From: a virus
Virus record (IMG/VR): IMGVR_UViG_3300034072_000926
Location: 167,621 to 231,620 of that record
Length of the DNA: 64,000 nt
Strand: one strand, 5' to 3'
Shown: piece by piece, positions 49,241 through 61,939 of the stretch
How positions within the stretch are numbered: the stretch's first letter is position 1
Layout of the letters: every line of letters starts with the position of its first letter
Translations under genes and position numbers: made by a program
The notes under the pieces: generated by a model
The model's database searches: none
Told to the model about the DNA's origin: nothing
Seen by the model: the letters and a program-made list of their open reading frames with translations, nothing else

Positions 49241-49495
49241 TTAGGCTTCAACGGCAGCAGCGAGCTGCTCGTTCTTGAAGGTCTTGGCTGCTTCCAGTTC
49301 CAACATGAGGTTGTTGGCCTTGCGACGCAGCAGATGCAGGCTATACTGCTCGCTCGAAACGTCCTTGCCCTTCATGGAAGCCATAACCTTCTTGAGGTCA
49401 CGGATCTCCTGCGAGATCTGTGCATACTTGAAGCGCCATGCTGCACGGTAGACCAGGTAGGTTTCACGCGAATTGAAATCGAAAGTATAAGTCAT
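49241..49495 (-). CDS. Small helical protein related to the next gene
   Basis: An 84-residue helical protein. RETYLVYRAAWRFKYAQISQ, a central Lys-rich turn, and LLRRKANNLMLELEAAKTFK align with the N-terminal half of the protein encoded at 48652-49230, pointing to a duplication. The ATG at 49495 overlaps the stop of the upstream gene (TAATG). Function unknown. Confidence 0.6.
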   Translation of the reverse strand: MTYTFDFNSRETYLVYRAAWRFKYAQISQEIRDLKKVMASMKGKDVSSEQYSLHLLRRKANNLMLELEAAKTFKNEQLAAAVEA

Positions 49496-49797
49496 TAGAT
49501 TGCTCCTCCAAAAGTCAGTTTGAAAAGTAGGGCGGTGTCGTGGTTCTCGAAATACCATTTGTCACCACCGCCGTTGTGCCAAAAGCTACCATTGTGTTCA
49601 TTACACCAGGGCATCATCTCAGAGGTTTTCTCTTTGACAGTTACCGTGGTGCATTCAGGCCAAGCTTCACGAAGCCTCTTGCTCCAATGCTTGTCTCGGG
49701 TTGAGACTCCTACTGGTTGGCAAAACTTCATACCGCATTCACGCCATGCCTTGATGTAGGCTTGGGTTGCGATAGTTTGAGCTGTTTTGAAATCCAT
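49495..49797 (-). CDS. FKL-family small protein
   Basis: A 100-residue protein ending GGGDKWYFENHDTALLFKLTFGGAI (quoted only in part here as WYFENHDTALLFKLTFGG), the full family motif. The N-terminal half is a helix plus a Cys-containing region. It lies 3 bases after the Pth2 stop and overlaps the following small gene. Same family as the array at 8.6-10.1 kb and single copies at 50-51, 57-62 kb. Confidence 0.6.
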   Translation of the reverse strand: MDFKTAQTIATQAYIKAWRECGMKFCQPVGVSTRDKHWSKRLREAWPECTTVTVKEKTSEMMPWCNEHNGSFWHNGGGDKWYFENHDTALLFKLTFGGAI

Positions 49798-49800
49798 CGG

Positions 49801-50259
49801 TCACTCCACTGCGCTGAAACGCTTGGTGATCGCATGTGCCTGTTCGCGGGTGCAAGGGCCAATACCCAGGGCAGTCACGATGGGCGAACCATCGAACTCG
49901 GTGCCGGGGATAATGTGGTTCTTGTCCACGATGAGGGAAGTGATCAGACCAGCAGCCTGGGCCTCTTCGTAAGCGCGCTGGATAGCGGCTTCGTTCTTGG
50001 CCTTGAGGATGACTTGGGTGCCGATGAAGTCCGGGCCCTGGTAAACACGCAGGAGTTCCGGTTCGCGCCGACTAGCGAGAAGCACACAATTCTTGGCCGC
50101 ATGACAAGCCTGGCTTGCCAGCTTACCGGGCTTCATAGCCAGGTCGCCTCGAATGATGCTATAGATGCGAAGCTTTTCAGAGGCAGCTTCGAAGGCCTCG
50201 TCGTCATTATCCGCTTCGTAGCGAGCAATGGCTTCCTACAAGAACGAGTTCGTCAGCAT
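49801..50259 (-). CDS. pth2: Peptidyl-tRNA hydrolase 2, with in-frame amber codon at position 8
   Basis: The Pth2 fold is clear: YSIIRGDLAMKPGKLASQAC followed by HAA, then DFIGTQVILKAKN, GLITSLIVD and GSPIVTALGIGP. Pth2 frees tRNA from peptidyl-tRNA lost by ribosomes. The only good start, ATG 50259 behind AAGGA, reads MLTNSFL, then TAG (50238-50236), then EAIARYEADNDDEAFEAASE and on in frame into the enzyme. Reading TAG as an amino acid gives 152 residues. Starting at the next ATG (50136) would remove the conserved beta strand and half of the K-x-x-A-Q-x-x-H-A region lead-in. A less likely alternative is an ATT start right after the TAG with AGGA four bases upstream. An amber-reading tRNA is encoded at 54590-54662. 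It has its own promoter at 50300-50327. Confidence 0.8.
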
Positions 50260-50299
50260 TTGCAGTCCTTTCTATTTGCGTCCAACATCGGACGTCCTC

Positions 50300-50327
50300 A
50301 ACATAAGACACTTTTAGGATGTGTCAA
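50300..50327 (-). promoter_or_regulatory. Sigma70-like promoter for pth2
   Basis: Minus strand TTGACA (50327-50322), 16-base spacer, TATGTT (50305-50300). Predicted +1 near 50293 gives a 34-base leader containing AAGGA before ATG 50259, supporting that ATG as the real start upstream of the amber codon. Confidence 0.6.
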
Positions 50328-50341
50328 CACTTAAATTGAAA

Positions 50342-50674
50342 TTATTTTGCCTCGGTTTCTTTCAAGGCTTCAATCTCTTCCCTGGTGTAATATTTCGTCG
50401 TATCAGGGCTAGTACAACCATGTGGACTATGGTATTTCATTTTCCACATCAATGCACCTTTCTCAGTTGGAAAGATAACCTCCAATGCAGGACCTTCCCA
50501 ACGTCCGCCCCAAGCCTCAATATCAGCAAGGACTTCTGGCTTTAGATCAGGTGTAAACTTATCAGCCCAGTGACCTATAATCAAACCTTCTTTCCAGAGG
50601 TTGATCGTGCCATACCCGAAATGATGTTCCGTTGGTTCATCATCGTTTATGCCATTCCAGGTATAATAGGTCAT
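50342..50674 (-). CDS. FKL-family small protein
   Basis: A 110-residue protein whose ATG overlaps the stop of the previous gene (ATGA). The motif appears as ALEVIFPTEKGALMWKMKY, with Trp and Met substituted for Phe and Leu, and is unusually followed by about 28 further residues including a helical tail. A Trp/Gly-rich N-terminus (MTYYTWNGINDD) precedes it. Function unknown. Confidence 0.55.
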   Translation of the reverse strand: MTYYTWNGINDDEPTEHHFGYGTINLWKEGLIIGHWADKFTPDLKPEVLADIEAWGGRWEGPALEVIFPTEKGALMWKMKYHSPHGCTSPDTTKYYTREEIEALKETEAK

Positions 50675-51003
50675 CGCCACCTCAGCTTAAACATCATCGC
50701 ATCGCGCGAATGGCTAAACACCACACCGACACTATACGAGCAACCTGTCTCCCAGCCAACTTTCTTCCACTCGCCATGCTTGACATTTTCCTTACACCAT
50801 TCCTCAACAGGAATGAATGTGGACCAGGAAAAGCCTAGCATCTTGACCAGATACCAGTTCGGGAACTTCTTATGGATTGATTCGACGAAATCTCCGTCTT
50901 CCCATTCGTCTTCTTCGAATAGGTTTGAGGTCTCCACGTCTTCGGAAATTTGGCCATCGTGGTAACCGAGATCGTCCCACAGCCAGGTAACATCATTATT
51001 CAT
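50671..51003 (-). CDS. FKL-family small protein
   Basis: A 110-residue acidic protein ending VVFSHSRDAMMFKLRWR. The first half (DLGYHDGQISEDVETSNLFE) is very acidic. ATG 51003 has TGGAGGA. A TTGACT/TATAAG promoter starts about 83 bases upstream, so the leader is long for this genome. Couples to the next FKL gene. Confidence 0.6.
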   Translation of the reverse strand: MNNDVTWLWDDLGYHDGQISEDVETSNLFEEDEWEDGDFVESIHKKFPNWYLVKMLGFSWSTFIPVEEWCKENVKHGEWKKVGWETGCSYSVGVVFSHSRDAMMFKLRWR

Positions 51004-51567: not shown

Positions 51568-51917
51568 GCACCAGTTTTATTCTGTTCTGGAGCACCTGTC
51601 AACTTCTTAAAAGCTTCGACTTCCCTGTCGAGAATTTCGAGAGCAATAGGAATATCTGCGCCTGCAACTCGAATGTCGAAAAAGCCCCAATGACATTCAT
51701 CGTCGCCGTCCGAATCGTAGCACTGATATTCAGTGCCGGTCTTCTCGTCGAGGAAATGGTTATCCAGAGAATACCAGAGATCTTCATCAATAGCACCGAC
51801 TGGAATTTTGATGCGACATGTGAGCTCGATGATAGGTTTCTCGGCATCATGCACGAAAATCCAATCGGTCGGGACAACCAGCTTAGAATCCCGAACCAAG
51901 ATCGCAAAGATGCTCAT
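51564..51917 (-). CDS. Unknown 117-residue protein
   Basis: A beta-rich soluble protein (MSIFAILVRDSKLVVPTDWI, HWGFFDIRVAGADIPIALEI) with Cys and Asp clusters in the middle (CYDSDGDDECHWG). The ATG overlaps the stop of the aminoacyl-tRNA synthetase-like gene (ATGA), so it may be a partner of that enzyme, but no family is recognised. Confidence 0.6.
   Translation of the reverse strand: MSIFAILVRDSKLVVPTDWIFVHDAEKPIIELTCRIKIPVGAIDEDLWYSLDNHFLDEKTGTEYQCYDSDGDDECHWGFFDIRVAGADIPIALEILDREVEAFKKLTGAPEQNKTGA
51574..51602 (-). promoter_or_regulatory. Sigma70-like promoter for the phosphatase gene, predicted leaderless
   Basis: Minus strand TTGACA (51602-51597), 17-base spacer, TAAAAC (51579-51574), within the end of the upstream coding sequence. 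+1 falls at 51567, the A of the ATG. Confidence 0.5.
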
Positions 51918-52714
51918 TCGTCACTGCCATTTGCGTGACGAGTGACATGCAGAGCGTTATCGGCCTGATACTTCTCGACCTGCTGCCAATTGTAGATGCA
52001 GCGATCCAGACCGATGGCAATCTCGAGCACAAGTGCGTCCTTCTCAACAAGACCTTTCTTGCTCTGGAACTTCAGCTTCTCAGGGAAATCAGTTCGCAGG
52101 CTGATGCTGCAAACTTCCATCCACTTGTCACCGTTCCAGACTTCAACGTCCATCGTCTTCAGCGAATAGGCCGGCAGACGATCCGACTCAACAAGACGGG
52201 TCGGTAAATGAACCATAGAGGCGATCATCTTCCGAACGGGTTCGAGGATCGCAGCATGATAGTCGTTCGCTGTGTCTGCACTGTAGATGCACTGGAACTC
52301 TTGCTGGTAGAACTCCTTAAGGCGCATGTGCTTGGTCGGCTGCACGATTTCCCGACGGAAGCTCTTACCCGCCTGCCAAACCACAAAGGGCGGGGAAACG
52401 CCAAGATGGTTGTTGAGCAGGTATTGCGCGTAGGCATAGCTACCGGGAGTGGTTTCGGGTCGCAGCGTCAACGGCGCTTCGCCGGACATGGCCGGGACCT
52501 GCTGATCCCATACATCCTCAGATGTGTAGTTGACATTGAGTAGATCACGCGGAGTGAGTAACGGGGCCTCGACGAAATGGAACTTCCACTGCGGGTTCAA
52601 GGCCAGCAATGCGTTTTGAATGGTCCGAGCAAAATAGTCCCGGAAGGTTTCGCGAAGGCGGATCTCTTCCTCATTCCAGAAGACCAGACCATTGATGTTA
52701 TAGGGATTCTGCAT
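51914..52714 (-). CDS. Class II aminoacyl-tRNA synthetase catalytic domain, GlyRS-like, no anticodon domain
   Basis: A 266-residue protein consisting of one class II catalytic core. Motif 2 is FRREIVQPTKHMRLKEF (119-135), matching the archaeal-type glycyl-tRNA synthetase FRNEIsPR...RxREF. LRPETTPGSYAYAQYLL (84-100) matches the GlyRS LRPETAQG segment. Motif 3 is EIAIGLDR (231-238). Full GlyRS has 450-600 residues with a C-terminal anticodon-binding domain, which is absent here. It could charge a tRNA without reading its anticodon, aminoacylate something else, or make an aminoacyl-adenylate. ATG 52714 follows an AAGG. It is 4 kb from cysS and 2 kb from the amber tRNA. Confidence 0.8.
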   Translation of the reverse strand: MQNPYNINGLVFWNEEEIRLRETFRDYFARTIQNALLALNPQWKFHFVEAPLLTPRDLLNVNYTSEDVWDQQVPAMSGEAPLTLRPETTPGSYAYAQYLLNNHLGVSPPFVVWQAGKSFRREIVQPTKHMRLKEFYQQEFQCIYSADTANDYHAAILEPVRKMIASMVHLPTRLVESDRLPAYSLKTMDVEVWNGDKWMEVCSISLRTDFPEKLKFQSKKGLVEKDALVLEIAIGLDRCIYNWQQVEKYQADNALHVTRHANGSDE

Positions 52715-52722
52715 AATGGGCC

Positions 52723-53232
52723 TTACTGGTTGAGAATGAAGATGAAGGAAACAACTGCCATCATAACACCGCCCCAGAAGAATGGGCTCTTCAGCAGCGC
52801 GGGCTTGATATCTGGGATAGCGATGGGTTCTGGTTCCGGCCTCGGTTCCCGAACATTTCTGAGCCCGAGGAAGGCTTGCCATTCCCATTCCGAAGAAGGC
52901 CGGTCATTGTTGTTCGTACTAGCCGCACCAGCATAGCCGATATACAGGCCTTCGCTGGCCGCCCATGTCCTCAGCTCTTCCCATACGGGCTGATATGCAG
53001 ATTTCTCATCTTCCATATCCCATCGAGAACCATAGCAGGGCATTTCGAAGAGATGCCGGATAGCCTTTGGGGCAGTCACTGGCGCATATTCACTGCCGTG
53101 CTTTACTGCCTCTTGTAGGGCTTCGAGCAAGGTGGACTTTACGAAGAACCGAAGGAGGTCTGCATTCTCCTTCAGTTCATTATGGATGGCTTCGCGCTTG
53201 GTCTTGCGAAGATCATCTGCGAGCGTTGCCAT
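52723..53232 (-). CDS. Tail-anchored membrane protein of unknown function
   Basis: A 169-residue protein with a soluble N-terminal helical domain (residues 1-55), a Trp-rich region (SSEWEWQAFLGLR), a Pro/Glu linker (EPRPEPEPIAIPDIKP) and one C-terminal membrane segment (FFWGGVMMAVVSFIFIL, about 150-167). It starts with TAATG overlap on the antiporter stop, so it probably works with that transporter at the inner membrane. Not recognised as a family. Confidence 0.65.
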   Translation of the reverse strand: MATLADDLRKTKREAIHNELKENADLLRFFVKSTLLEALQEAVKHGSEYAPVTAPKAIRHLFEMPCYGSRWDMEDEKSAYQPVWEELRTWAASEGLYIGYAGAASTNNNDRPSSEWEWQAFLGLRNVREPRPEPEPIAIPDIKPALLKSPFFWGGVMMAVVSFIFILNQ

Positions 53233-54551: not shown

Positions 54552-54589
54552 CTACTTTCCTATTCTGTTTGACCTCATAAAATGTTGAG

Positions 54590-54662
54590 CGCGCCTAGCG
54601 AGGCTCGAACTCGCGACCCGCGGATTTAGAGTCCGCTGCTCTACCAACTGAGCTATAAGCGC
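54590..54662 (-). tRNA. tRNA with anticodon CUA (amber suppressor tRNA)
   Basis: The minus strand folds as a complete 73-nt class I tRNA. Acceptor stem GCGCTTA/TAGGCGC is fully paired with one G-U, the D stem is GCTC/GAGC, and the anticodon stem is GCGGA/TCCGC with loop CTCTAAA. T33 is followed by CTA at 34-36. The T stem is GCGAG/CTCGC with loop TTCGAGC. The discriminator is G73 and no CCA is encoded. Anticodon CUA reads UAG. The body resembles ordinary elongator tRNAs (for example tRNALys and some tRNAArg). G73 argues against Cys as the charged amino acid; which amino acid it carries cannot be read from sequence. A promoter 9 bases upstream sets +1 two bases before the mature 5' end. Confidence 0.95.
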
Positions 54663-55788: not shown

Positions 55789-57138
55789 TTAGAGTTTCCT
55801 CCATTCGGTGCCGTGAACGCCATCGGCAAGCGCGATTCCTGCATCAGTAAGCTGCTGACGAATCTGATCCGCTCTCTCGTAATCTCGATTCGCACGAGCA
55901 GCTTGACGTGCCGCTATTAGCGACTCTACCCACACCTTGTCAACACCAAAGGTGCGCCACTGGTGAGGAGTTTGGTTAAAGAAACCAAGGAACTGAGCAC
56001 ATTTGATCAGTTGAGCCTTAGATTTTGCCTTTTCATTTCCACTTTCCAACGCATCAGCGAGTTCGTGGAGAATGGCAATAGCTTTGGTGGTATTCAGATC
56101 ATGCTGGAGAGCATTCAGGAAATTCTCCGGCAGATCACAATCTTCGGCATAATTGACATCATCGTGCCGGTAGATCGTCTCATATAGACGATCCAACGAC
56201 TTATAGGCCACATCCAGTTTCGACAATGTGAAGTCCATCGGACTACGATAATGTGACTGGAGGAAGAGATAACGAACTGCCTCGCCGGGATATTGCTCGA
56301 CCAGCTCATTGAGGTAGATTACATTGCCCCGACTCTTCGACATCTTTTCGCTGTCGACGGTCAAAAGACCATTATGGATCCAGTTATTGGCCAGTGGCTT
56401 ACCAATGGCGCAATGACTCTGAGCACATTCGGCTTCATGATGTGGAAAGCGAAGATCCTGTCCGCCGCCATGAATGTCGATGGTCTGTTCATTAAACTCA
56501 GCAGCAATCATAGCTGAGCATTCAATATGCCAACCCGGTCGACCTTGACCCCAAGGACTATTCCACCAAGGCTCGCCCTCTTTTGCGGGCTTCCAGAGAA
56601 TGAAGTCCCTTGGATCCTTTTTCTTTGGATCAACTTCGACTCGCGAACCACTTTCAAGGCTCTTGTGATTAGCAAGTCCAGGATGCGGGTTACTGGGAAC
56701 ATGGAAGAATACCTCACCCTTGCGGACATACGCATACTTCTGTTCAACGAGACGCTTAATTAGCGTCAGCATCCCTCTAATGTTCTCTGTGGCTTTAGGC
56801 TCTACCGTTGGAGCCAAGCAATTGAGGGCAGCAAGGTCAGCGTGATATGCCTCGAGAGCCGGCTCGGTTATGGCCGAGATATCGACACCTTGCTCAATCG
56901 AAGCGTTGATGATCTTGTCATCAATATCCGTGACATTACGAGCATATCTGACTGCATTTTCACCATATGTATAGCGGAGCAATCGGAAGAGCTGGTCGAA
57001 TACGATAGCGGGGCGAGCATTGCCAATGTGGGCCGGGCCATAAACGGTTGGTCCACAGACATACATGCTCACGTGATTTGGATCGAGCGGTGTGAACTCT
57101 CGCAGAGAACGCGACTGACTATCATAGAGTTTAATCAT
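55789..57138 (-). CDS. cysS: Cysteinyl-tRNA synthetase
   Basis: A 449-residue complete class I CysRS. It has the Zn ligand Cys28 and signature HIGN (37-40) in CGPTVYGPAHIGNARPAI. Further Zn-site residues lie in WHIECSAM and GGGQDLRFPHHEAECAQSHC, and KMSKSRGN at about 264-271. Length equals bacterial CysRS (461). It makes Cys-tRNACys; why a phage carries it is unknown. No tRNACys is visible in the window, and the amber tRNA has G73 rather than the U73 that CysRS needs. A TTGACA/TAAGCT promoter sets +1 exactly on the ATG, with no Shine-Dalgarno. Confidence 0.96.
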   Translation of the reverse strand: MIKLYDSQSRSLREFTPLDPNHVSMYVCGPTVYGPAHIGNARPAIVFDQLFRLLRYTYGENAVRYARNVTDIDDKIINASIEQGVDISAITEPALEAYHADLAALNCLAPTVEPKATENIRGMLTLIKRLVEQKYAYVRKGEVFFHVPSNPHPGLANHKSLESGSRVEVDPKKKDPRDFILWKPAKEGEPWWNSPWGQGRPGWHIECSAMIAAEFNEQTIDIHGGGQDLRFPHHEAECAQSHCAIGKPLANNWIHNGLLTVDSEKMSKSRGNVIYLNELVEQYPGEAVRYLFLQSHYRSPMDFTLSKLDVAYKSLDRLYETIYRHDDVNYAEDCDLPENFLNALQHDLNTTKAIAILHELADALESGNEKAKSKAQLIKCAQFLGFFNQTPHQWRTFGVDKVWVESLIAARQAARANRDYERADQIRQQLTDAGIALADGVHGTEWRKL

Positions 57139-57144
57139 ACTGCC

Positions 57145-57172
57145 AGCTTACAGGAAAAAGGTTAGCTGTCAA
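57145..57172 (-). promoter_or_regulatory. Sigma70-like promoter for cysS, predicted leaderless
   Basis: Minus strand TTGACA (57172-57167), 16-base spacer, TAAGCT (57150-57145). +1 falls at 57138, the A of ATG. Confidence 0.55.
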
Positions 57173-57573
57173 CCAAAAGTCAATTTGAACAGAATAGCCA
57201 TCCTGCGATCAGAGAACCTAGCAGTGAGTCGAAACTCAACTTTGCTATTGCGACCTGAAATTGCTTCTTCAAATGGATCACCGGCATCAACTAGGAAACT
57301 GAAATGAACATTGCCTTGTGTTATGGTTTCCTTTGCCCATTCCATGATATTGATACCATTGAGATGGAAGTCAGGGCGACACAGAACATTGCGATGAGCC
57401 TGGTAGTCTGCCAGAGTTCCATATTCAACAGTTAGGAATGGAACCTTAACAGTTGCTCGATAGGGTTCGAGACGCCTCCACCACTTATCGCGAAAGGCAT
57501 AGACGTAATATCGCTCGTCACGATAGGGAATATCACCTCCACCGCGATGAAATGTTTTCTGCGTCCAGCTCAT
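57169..57573 (-). CDS. FKL-family small protein
   Basis: A 134-residue protein ending RFSDRRMAILFKLTFG. The N-terminal part (MSWTQKTFHRGGGDIPYRDE, YYVYAFRDKWWRRLEPY) is aromatic and basic. ATG overlaps the TGA of the upstream FKL gene. Its own 3' end contains the -35 of the cysS promoter. One of the longer family members; the extra length is N-terminal. Confidence 0.6.
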   Translation of the reverse strand: MSWTQKTFHRGGGDIPYRDERYYVYAFRDKWWRRLEPYRATVKVPFLTVEYGTLADYQAHRNVLCRPDFHLNGINIMEWAKETITQGNVHFSFLVDAGDPFEEAISGRNSKVEFRLTARFSDRRMAILFKLTFG

Positions 57574-57911
57574 CGTCCACCCATCTGAAGTTTGAACATC
57601 AATGCACTATTGGGATCAGTGAATCGAACCCGAATAATGCAAGGATCTTCTTTAAGAAAAGAATAGCTTTTTGCGGGATAGACATCAAAGATGTATGATC
57701 CCTTTGCATTGTCTTTCAGCCACTCCTCTAGATCTTCGCCATTTGCATTGAAGAAGCTGCACTCGTTATTCCGACGTCTTGGACAGAGAAAGGTCTTGAT
57801 TGTTCCTCCACGAACAATCGCTTCGGTCCAGGGCTTGAAGACTTTATGGAGACTGAACAAACGCAGATGCATCTTTGTGATATGAACGTCTGTGTAGCGT
57901 CTAAATATCAT
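57570..57911 (-). CDS. FKL-family small protein
   Basis: A 113-residue protein ending IIRVRFTDPNSALMFKLQMG. ATG 57911 overlaps the amber stop of the ATP-grasp gene; an internal ATG at 57872 (MHLRLFSL) is an alternative. The middle has Cys pairs separated by Arg (CPRRRNNEC), not a clear zinc motif. Coupled to the next FKL gene by ATGA. Confidence 0.55.
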   Translation of the reverse strand: MIFRRYTDVHITKMHLRLFSLHKVFKPWTEAIVRGGTIKTFLCPRRRNNECSFFNANGEDLEEWLKDNAKGSYIFDVYPAKSYSFLKEDPCIIRVRFTDPNSALMFKLQMGGR

Positions 57912-61624: not shown

Positions 61625-61939
61625 TTAAGAAATTTGCCACGCCTGGTGACCACCGCGTAGCTTGAACATCAACGCGTCATTCTTGTCCTGAAACCGAACA
61701 ACCATCGTATGATCGTTGGTCTTGCGGGACTTTGGATGTTGGTAGCAGTAAGAAGCCCATTGACCCGGATTGTTCTCACGGAGCCAGTCCTGGACTTTCT
61801 TTATTGATTCCCAGCTATCGGGAATATTGAACTGAACGCGAGTCCAGTTGAGGTTCATTGGACCCTGACTATGTTGTCTAAATAGCTCAGTTGTCGGGAC
61901 TTCAAAGTTTGTGAATGTAATCTGTTCGGGCTGTTCCAT
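61625..61939 (-). CDS. FKL-family small protein
   Basis: A 104-residue protein. The motif is MVVRFQDKNDALMFKLRGGH, followed by a short tail. Trp-rich middle (WTRVQFNIPDSWESIKKVQD, NNPGQWASYCYQHP) suggests a compact alpha/beta fold in which helix and strand elements precede the motif. This member shows the general family layout best: strand, helix (VQDWLRENN), strand, D-A-L-M-F-K-L. ATG 61939 has TAGGA. Confidence 0.6.
   Translation of the reverse strand: MEQPEQITFTNFEVPTTELFRQHSQGPMNLNWTRVQFNIPDSWESIKKVQDWLRENNPGQWASYCYQHPKSRKTNDHTMVVRFQDKNDALMFKLRGGHQAWQIS

Follow-up and report, generated by a model that had tools for sequence, protein, structure and literature searches.

An early in-frame stop codon in the Pth2 genes of a jumbo phage clade is matched by the anticodon of phage suppressor tRNAs

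In a clade of jumbo phages, the gene for peptidyl-tRNA hydrolase 2 (Pth2) opens with a leader of a few codons that ends at an in-frame stop, after which the same frame continues into the enzyme. Judged by sequence comparison, the conserved feature of the clade is this early stop itself, which may be TAG or TGA but in no case is TAA. The comparison reveals coding sequence in one frame on both sides of it, and a stop identity that matches the anticodon of a suppressor tRNA encoded by the phage. We consider it very probable that readthrough by this tRNA gates the synthesis of Pth2, and that Pth2 is the dedicated readthrough gene of the clade. That suppression takes place, with what efficiency and with which amino acid, is something that we infer from these patterns, and the purpose proposed for it, the timing or tuning of peptidyl-tRNA recycling, is more speculative.

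The window, which is the whole stretch of 64,000 nucleotides analysed here, corresponds to positions 167621-231620 of a virus record of 465,259 bases. It belongs to a jumbo phage (~465 kb) whose nearest named relatives are Rhizobiales jumbo phages available as isolates: the Sinorhizobium phage Phosso, on S. meliloti, and the Agrobacterium phage Atu_ph07, on A. tumefaciens C58. The features of the Pth2 locus are collected in Table 1. The initial annotation had described a TAG at codon 8 of Pth2, and this description holds: AAGGA is followed by the ATG at 50259, six sense codons, the TAG and an open frame (TAG GAA GCC...) that runs to the TGA at 49801. It had also placed the TAG ahead of the N-terminal β-strand of the enzyme with no ATG between the two, which is borne out by the position of β1 (residues 30-37); the first ATG, GTG or TTG in frame past the TAG is the ATG at 50136 (M42), beyond β1. 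Initiation at codon 42 would therefore cost the enzyme this strand.

Upstream of the leader, the promoter elements TTGAC and TATGTTGA/TAAGTTGA are retained across 8/8 close orthologs. Among the orthologs, the hairpin in the 5' UTR shows changes on both sides at three of its seven pairs, with 91% of cells paired. The hairpin motif TCCGATGTTGGA (GTCC-loop-GGAC) has a single occurrence in the genome.

Table 1. Features at and around the Pth2 locus, in window coordinates.
Feature	Position	Strand	Description and basis
σ70-like promoter	50300..50327	-	TTGACA (50327-50322), 16-nt spacer, TATGTT (50305-50300); read from sequence
5' UTR hairpin, between Pth2 promoter and Shine-Dalgarno	50278..50294	-	CGTCC..GGACG; compensatory changes among orthologs
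Shine-Dalgarno	50266..50270	-	AAGGA; sequence; SD-like element precedes leader ATG in 18 IMG/VR loci
Leader and stop	50236..50259	-	ATG CTG ACG AAC TCG TTC TTG, then in-frame TAG (50238-50236)
Post-stop open frame	49801..50235	-	Linker and Pth2 domain, terminates with TGA; PF01981 PTH2
β1 strand of Pth2	50149..50172	-	Codons 30-37; AlphaFold model; between TAG and internal ATG 50136
Small-protein motif family	49495-49797, 50342-50680, 50671-51003, 57169-57573, 57570-57911, 61625-61939	-	By eye
Minimal class II aminoacyl-tRNA synthetase-like gene	51914..52888	-	Pfam tRNA-synt_2b 5e-9; PDB GlyRS 1e-9
Suppressor tRNA, anticodon CUA	54589..54662	-	ARAGORN; Rfam tRNA 69.9 bits
Cysteinyl-tRNA synthetase	55789-57138	-	

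The product is Pth2 by its PTH2 domain and its fold, and is a predicted peptidyl-tRNA hydrolase. The frame after the stop matches PF01981 PTH2 with an E-value of 7e-20, and on comparison with solved Pth2 structures the profile alignment to M. jannaschii Pth2 starts at β1. AlphaFold was run on the read-through product with the TAG written as Q and an alignment of 17 rows, and gave a model with a pLDDT of 90, which Foldseek finds to resemble archaeal and human Pth2 (TM-score up to 0.90, normalised by 2zv3). The stop-bearing genes of Atu_ph07 (gp256) and Phosso are annotated from an internal ATG and hence without β1. A second, divergent Pth2-like gene with a normal start and no stop is present elsewhere in the window's genome (positions 406023-406367).

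The ATG, six codons and TAG recur in all seven IMG/VR orthologs of 87-91% identity, all metagenomic, which confirms that the TAG is neither chance nor a sequencing error. Phosso has ATG AAG TAT TAG and Atu_ph07 has ATG ATT GGC GAA CAC TTT TGA, each followed by Pth2 in frame. A profile made from the Pth2 domain only (alignment A3), in which the stop was not used, returned 18 IMG/VR loci, one being the Atu_ph07 genome itself and seven the close orthologs found previously. Together with the window and Phosso these make a clade of 20. The initial annotation had proposed that homologous loci be compared for a stop or a sense codon at this place, and the outcome is uniform: every member of the clade has a Shine-Dalgarno sequence, an ATG, 1-6 further codons, an in-frame stop and then Pth2, the stop being TAG in 17 and TGA in three. 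Leader and Pth2 are in frame 0 in all 20, with no shift of the prfB type. On the tree the 20 stop-bearing proteins form a single clade (support 100/100), separate from six stop-less phage Pth2s, which have normal starts and no early in-frame stop, and at least two switches between TAG and TGA are required.

Apart from the stop, the beginning of the gene is variable. The leaders are unrelated between subclades (MLTNSFL, MTAFT, MSY, MIGEHF, MKHLDHR, MKEL, MSL, MS, ML, MRDTEVV and MNNDKNW), and the tail from the stop to the Pth2 domain may be only a few residues long or reach about 36 and more. The base directly 3' of the stop is never U in the clade; a U in this position is reported to lower readthrough (PMC5289835). 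A search of bacterial genomes found no relative. One phage of the clade, G008, has near its intact stop-bearing gene a decayed second copy (around 353640-353723) with a leader and TAG of its own (MTHISAADT-TAG-...), so that TAG is present in both copies.

The stop is paired with a suppressor tRNA. A CUA tRNA had been noted near the gene, and ARAGORN and Rfam place it 4.3 kb upstream of Pth2; the genome has a second one elsewhere. All seven close orthologs have a CUA tRNA near the Pth2 locus. Among the informative genomes with TAG, 14 of 15 encode a CUA tRNA (the window's, the seven close orthologs, Phosso, G009, G022, G025, G026 and G027), the short TAG fragments L202 and L211 being uninformative in this respect; in G025 the tRNA adjoins Pth2. 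The exception is G008, where ARAGORN and a looser local scan found no CUA tRNA in the 543-kb record. The three genomes with TGA (Atu_ph07, G020 and G021) all have a UCA tRNA, and CUA was found in none of them. For G020 (locus L204) and G021 (L205) the UCA tRNA was predicted beforehand and then found, in each case ~4 kb downstream of Pth2; the tRNA search of G021 covered a part of the record chosen to include its listed tRNA places. Close orthologs are not independent, and the independent units are the switches of stop codon. The strength of the match therefore lies in the two or more separate switches read from the tree, after which stop and anticodon agree.

The particular amino acid inserted is probably not the point, given that the stop lies in a variable tail and that the bodies of the suppressor tRNAs resemble different isoacceptors (by nearest-isoacceptor comparison, which is weak evidence). 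As regards pyrrolysine decoding, PylS gave no match over the curated cut-off in the window's genome, Phosso, G021 or G026. As regards selenocysteine, no phage-encoded SelB and no long tRNASec were found, and the UCA tRNAs are cloverleaves of 75-77 nt.

We propose the following mechanism. Ribosomes would initiate at the ATG led by the Shine-Dalgarno sequence, read 1-6 more codons and reach the TAG or TGA, where the host release factor would normally terminate. Given a charged phage tRNA whose anticodon, CUA or UCA, fits the stop, the codon would be decoded, and the ribosome would proceed in frame through the variable N-terminal tail into the Pth2 domain. The output of Pth2 would be the result of competition between the phage suppressor tRNA and the release factor, so that the enzyme would not appear before the phage's supply of tRNA is functional. 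The initial annotation had suggested that Pth2 synthesis depends on suppression; the conservation in 20/20 members, the joint change of stop and anticodon and the coding sequence on both sides all argue for this dependence. Against it count G008, with TAG and no CUA tRNA found, the presence of suppressor tRNAs in the jumbo phage XacN1, whose Pth2 has no stop, and the second, stop-less Pth2-like gene of the window's genome. A feedback loop between suppression and tRNA recycling is plausible. In its fullest form the proposal is a switch of one gene, in which the suppressor tRNA and the Pth2 stop co-evolve, Pth2 senses the competition between suppressor and release factor and tunes peptidyl-tRNA recycling, and dependence alone is selected, whichever residue is inserted; we judge the case for and against this to be evenly balanced.

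Two purposes compatible with gating by readthrough may be considered. The first is one of timing, with no feedback: Pth2 would stay off until the phage tRNAs have been made, matured and charged, and would be synthesised after the phage tRNA set has taken over translation. The genomes with a stop-bearing Pth2 encode about 30-65 tRNAs, and the suppressor tRNA is in many of them within 5 kb of Pth2, but it is far away in Atu_ph07, G009 and G022, and we place this purpose slightly on the doubtful side of even. The second, which we put forward more tentatively and with doubt outweighing belief, is that the leader acts as a sensor. Where release factor is limiting or drop-off frequent, ribosomes would dwell at the stop, with more readthrough and more Pth2, in a feedback like that of prfB, the suppressor tRNA setting the gain. 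The leader of 2-7 codons resembles the minigenes that cause peptidyl-tRNA drop-off relieved by Pth (PMC8012679; PMC10192219), the product is exactly the enzyme that deals with such drop-off, and prfB likewise has an early in-frame stop (PMC12421855). Against this, the leaders vary between subclades with no conserved signal besides the stop, and it is our inference that drop-off would raise readthrough.

The readthrough of the stop itself has to be weighed against initiation downstream of it. In the eight close orthologs, differences in the leader fall 32/13/67 by codon position (64 synonymous, 25 not) and those in the linker 79/52/222, many of them synonymous, and the pattern is lost in the other two frames. 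This implies selection at the protein level on leader and linker, in the same frame, as would be expected of one read-through protein; the stop is conserved in frame and flanked on either side by sequence under coding selection, which is a mark of programmed readthrough. The alternative is that the leader from ATG to TAG constitutes a short ORF upstream of the gene proper, with Pth2 arising by reinitiation or from a non-AUG start past the stop. Short leaders that end just upstream of genes are common regulators, and candidate starts after the stop do exist in L204, L205, L208 and L210, with a GTG immediately 3' of the TGA in L204 and L205 and ATG codons in the linker of L210, so that reinitiation is possible in L204, L205 and L210. 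Most members of the clade, however, have no ATG, GTG or TTG between the stop and the Pth2 domain, and there is none from the stop to β1 in the window, the close orthologs, Phosso, L201, L202, L207, L211 and L212. The ATT at 50235, which the initial annotation had named as a possible start, is disfavoured, being GCT in most orthologs. Leader, stop and domain share a frame in 20/20, for which an upstream ORF has no need, and the tracking of the suppressor anticodon by the stop would be left unexplained. We therefore regard an upstream ORF as very unlikely. That the stop marks a decaying gene or an assembly error can, on comparative grounds, be practically dismissed: the decayed copy in G008 would fit, but the same architecture recurs in 20 homologs, which come from separately assembled records and include two isolate genomes, codon differences in the domain (988 synonymous, 293 not) show strong purifying selection, and the stop switches type and is never lost.

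Synonymous changes appear constrained in codons 9-37 (p 0.014). A stimulatory RNA structure near the stop, which is common in programmed readthrough but not universal, was considered and is not part of the proposed mechanism: the minimum-energy fold has the stop within one long-range stem in 6/8 sequences of the window clade, with z-scores for the most part close to 0, and a stem pairing with the stop was not seen beyond that clade.

The rest of the genome uses the standard code. Of 249 genes with conserved counterparts in Phosso or Atu_ph07, 19 end in TAG, as do 67 of the 636 genes of a wider conserved set, and long genes are open under table 11, one example being an ORF of 3516 aa. Scans for in-frame stops were anchored on genes, as tblastn scans over all stops were swamped by antisense frames, and in them an early in-frame TAG is clear in just one conserved gene, Pth2, among the few relatives compared and with poorly conserved genes liable to be missed. 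An ATG led by a Shine-Dalgarno sequence within 10 codons before a preceding in-frame stop is found in three of the 636 conserved genes, and in the other two the stop is TAA. The genome therefore has the CUA suppressor tRNA of a code-15 phage, but neither the loss of TAG as terminator nor many in-frame TAGs in late and structural genes. It is not stop-recoded, and TAG is an ordinary terminator elsewhere.

The neighbouring synthetase-like gene encodes a GlyRS-like catalytic core of about 250 aa with no anticodon-binding domain. It occurs at 25 IMG/VR loci and in 19 phage records, some of them from Caulobacter and Brevundimonas phages, and is in many cases annotated as hypothetical. It was considered as an obligate partner and rejected. 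The gene is absent from Atu_ph07, G020, G021, G022 and G026, so the enzyme is not needed, and many phages that carry it have no suppressor tRNA nearby. In six records that lack a stop-bearing Pth2 or give no clear call for one, the tRNAs around the synthetase gene, about 88 in total, include no suppressor. The cysteinyl-tRNA synthetase gene lies near the CUA tRNA, and the adjacency is kept in close relatives and Phosso. Proteins of about 190-200 aa with an RF-1 domain are found in three phages with stop-bearing Pth2 (G021 449777, G026 282069 and G027 528362). Several small proteins whose C-termini share, by eye, a motif approximating A(L/M)MFKL(R/Q/T)..G form an apparent repeated family around the Pth2 and tRNA genes.

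In the literature covered, which is incomplete and excludes preprints, phage Pth2 was not found to be linked to suppressor tRNAs. Suppressor-tRNA-dependent expression is known from recoded phages; what appears to be new is its confinement to a single gene whose stop changes in step with the anticodon. In code-15 crAss-like and jumbo phages (PMC9523058, PMC10607447, PMC13037316) a phage CUA tRNA likewise decodes in-frame TAG, whereas here TAG still serves as a normal terminator, the late genes run without interruption, and a single gene carries the stop, conserved at one site near its start. The autoregulation of prfB, which encodes release factor 2 (PMC12421855), is similar in that a translation factor is placed behind an early in-frame stop and its output would report on termination conditions. 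It requires a programmed frameshift, whereas here leader and Pth2 share one frame, TAG or TGA serves as the stop, and the phage has a tRNA whose anticodon matches it. The bar minigenes of lambda (PMC8012679) also consist of ATG, a few codons and a stop and involve peptidyl-tRNA hydrolase, but they are harmful at low host Pth and unfused to pth, whereas here the short ORF forms the beginning of the Pth2 gene itself.

Further close systems are the jumbo phages XacN1, Atu_ph07 and AP-J-162 (PMC5852040, PMC6102473, PMC11242549), which likewise combine a CUA or UCA suppressor tRNA with a peptidyl-tRNA hydrolase, and for which the accessible text of the reports names no target gene of the suppressor. 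In that text, the CUA tRNA of AP-J-162 is labelled tRNA-Pyl (PMC11242549), the authors of XacN1 sought targets for its two CUA tRNAs and found none (PMC5852040), and those of Atu_ph07 report a UCA suppressor and two Pth genes, of which gp256 is the stop-bearing Pth2, without connecting them (PMC6102473). The Pth2 of XacN1 has a normal start and no stop and therefore does not explain its suppressors; suppressor tRNAs thus also occur without a stop-bearing Pth2. For Atu_ph07 we propose gp256 as the target, in a gene whose stop-bearing start, as in Phosso, standard annotation misses. The lone suppressor tRNAs of standard-code jumbo phages would thereby acquire, in one large clade, a specific conserved target and a codon-anticodon rule, and a stop codon could be maintained in the long term as a working element of one gene, without the genome-wide reassignment seen in code-15 phages.
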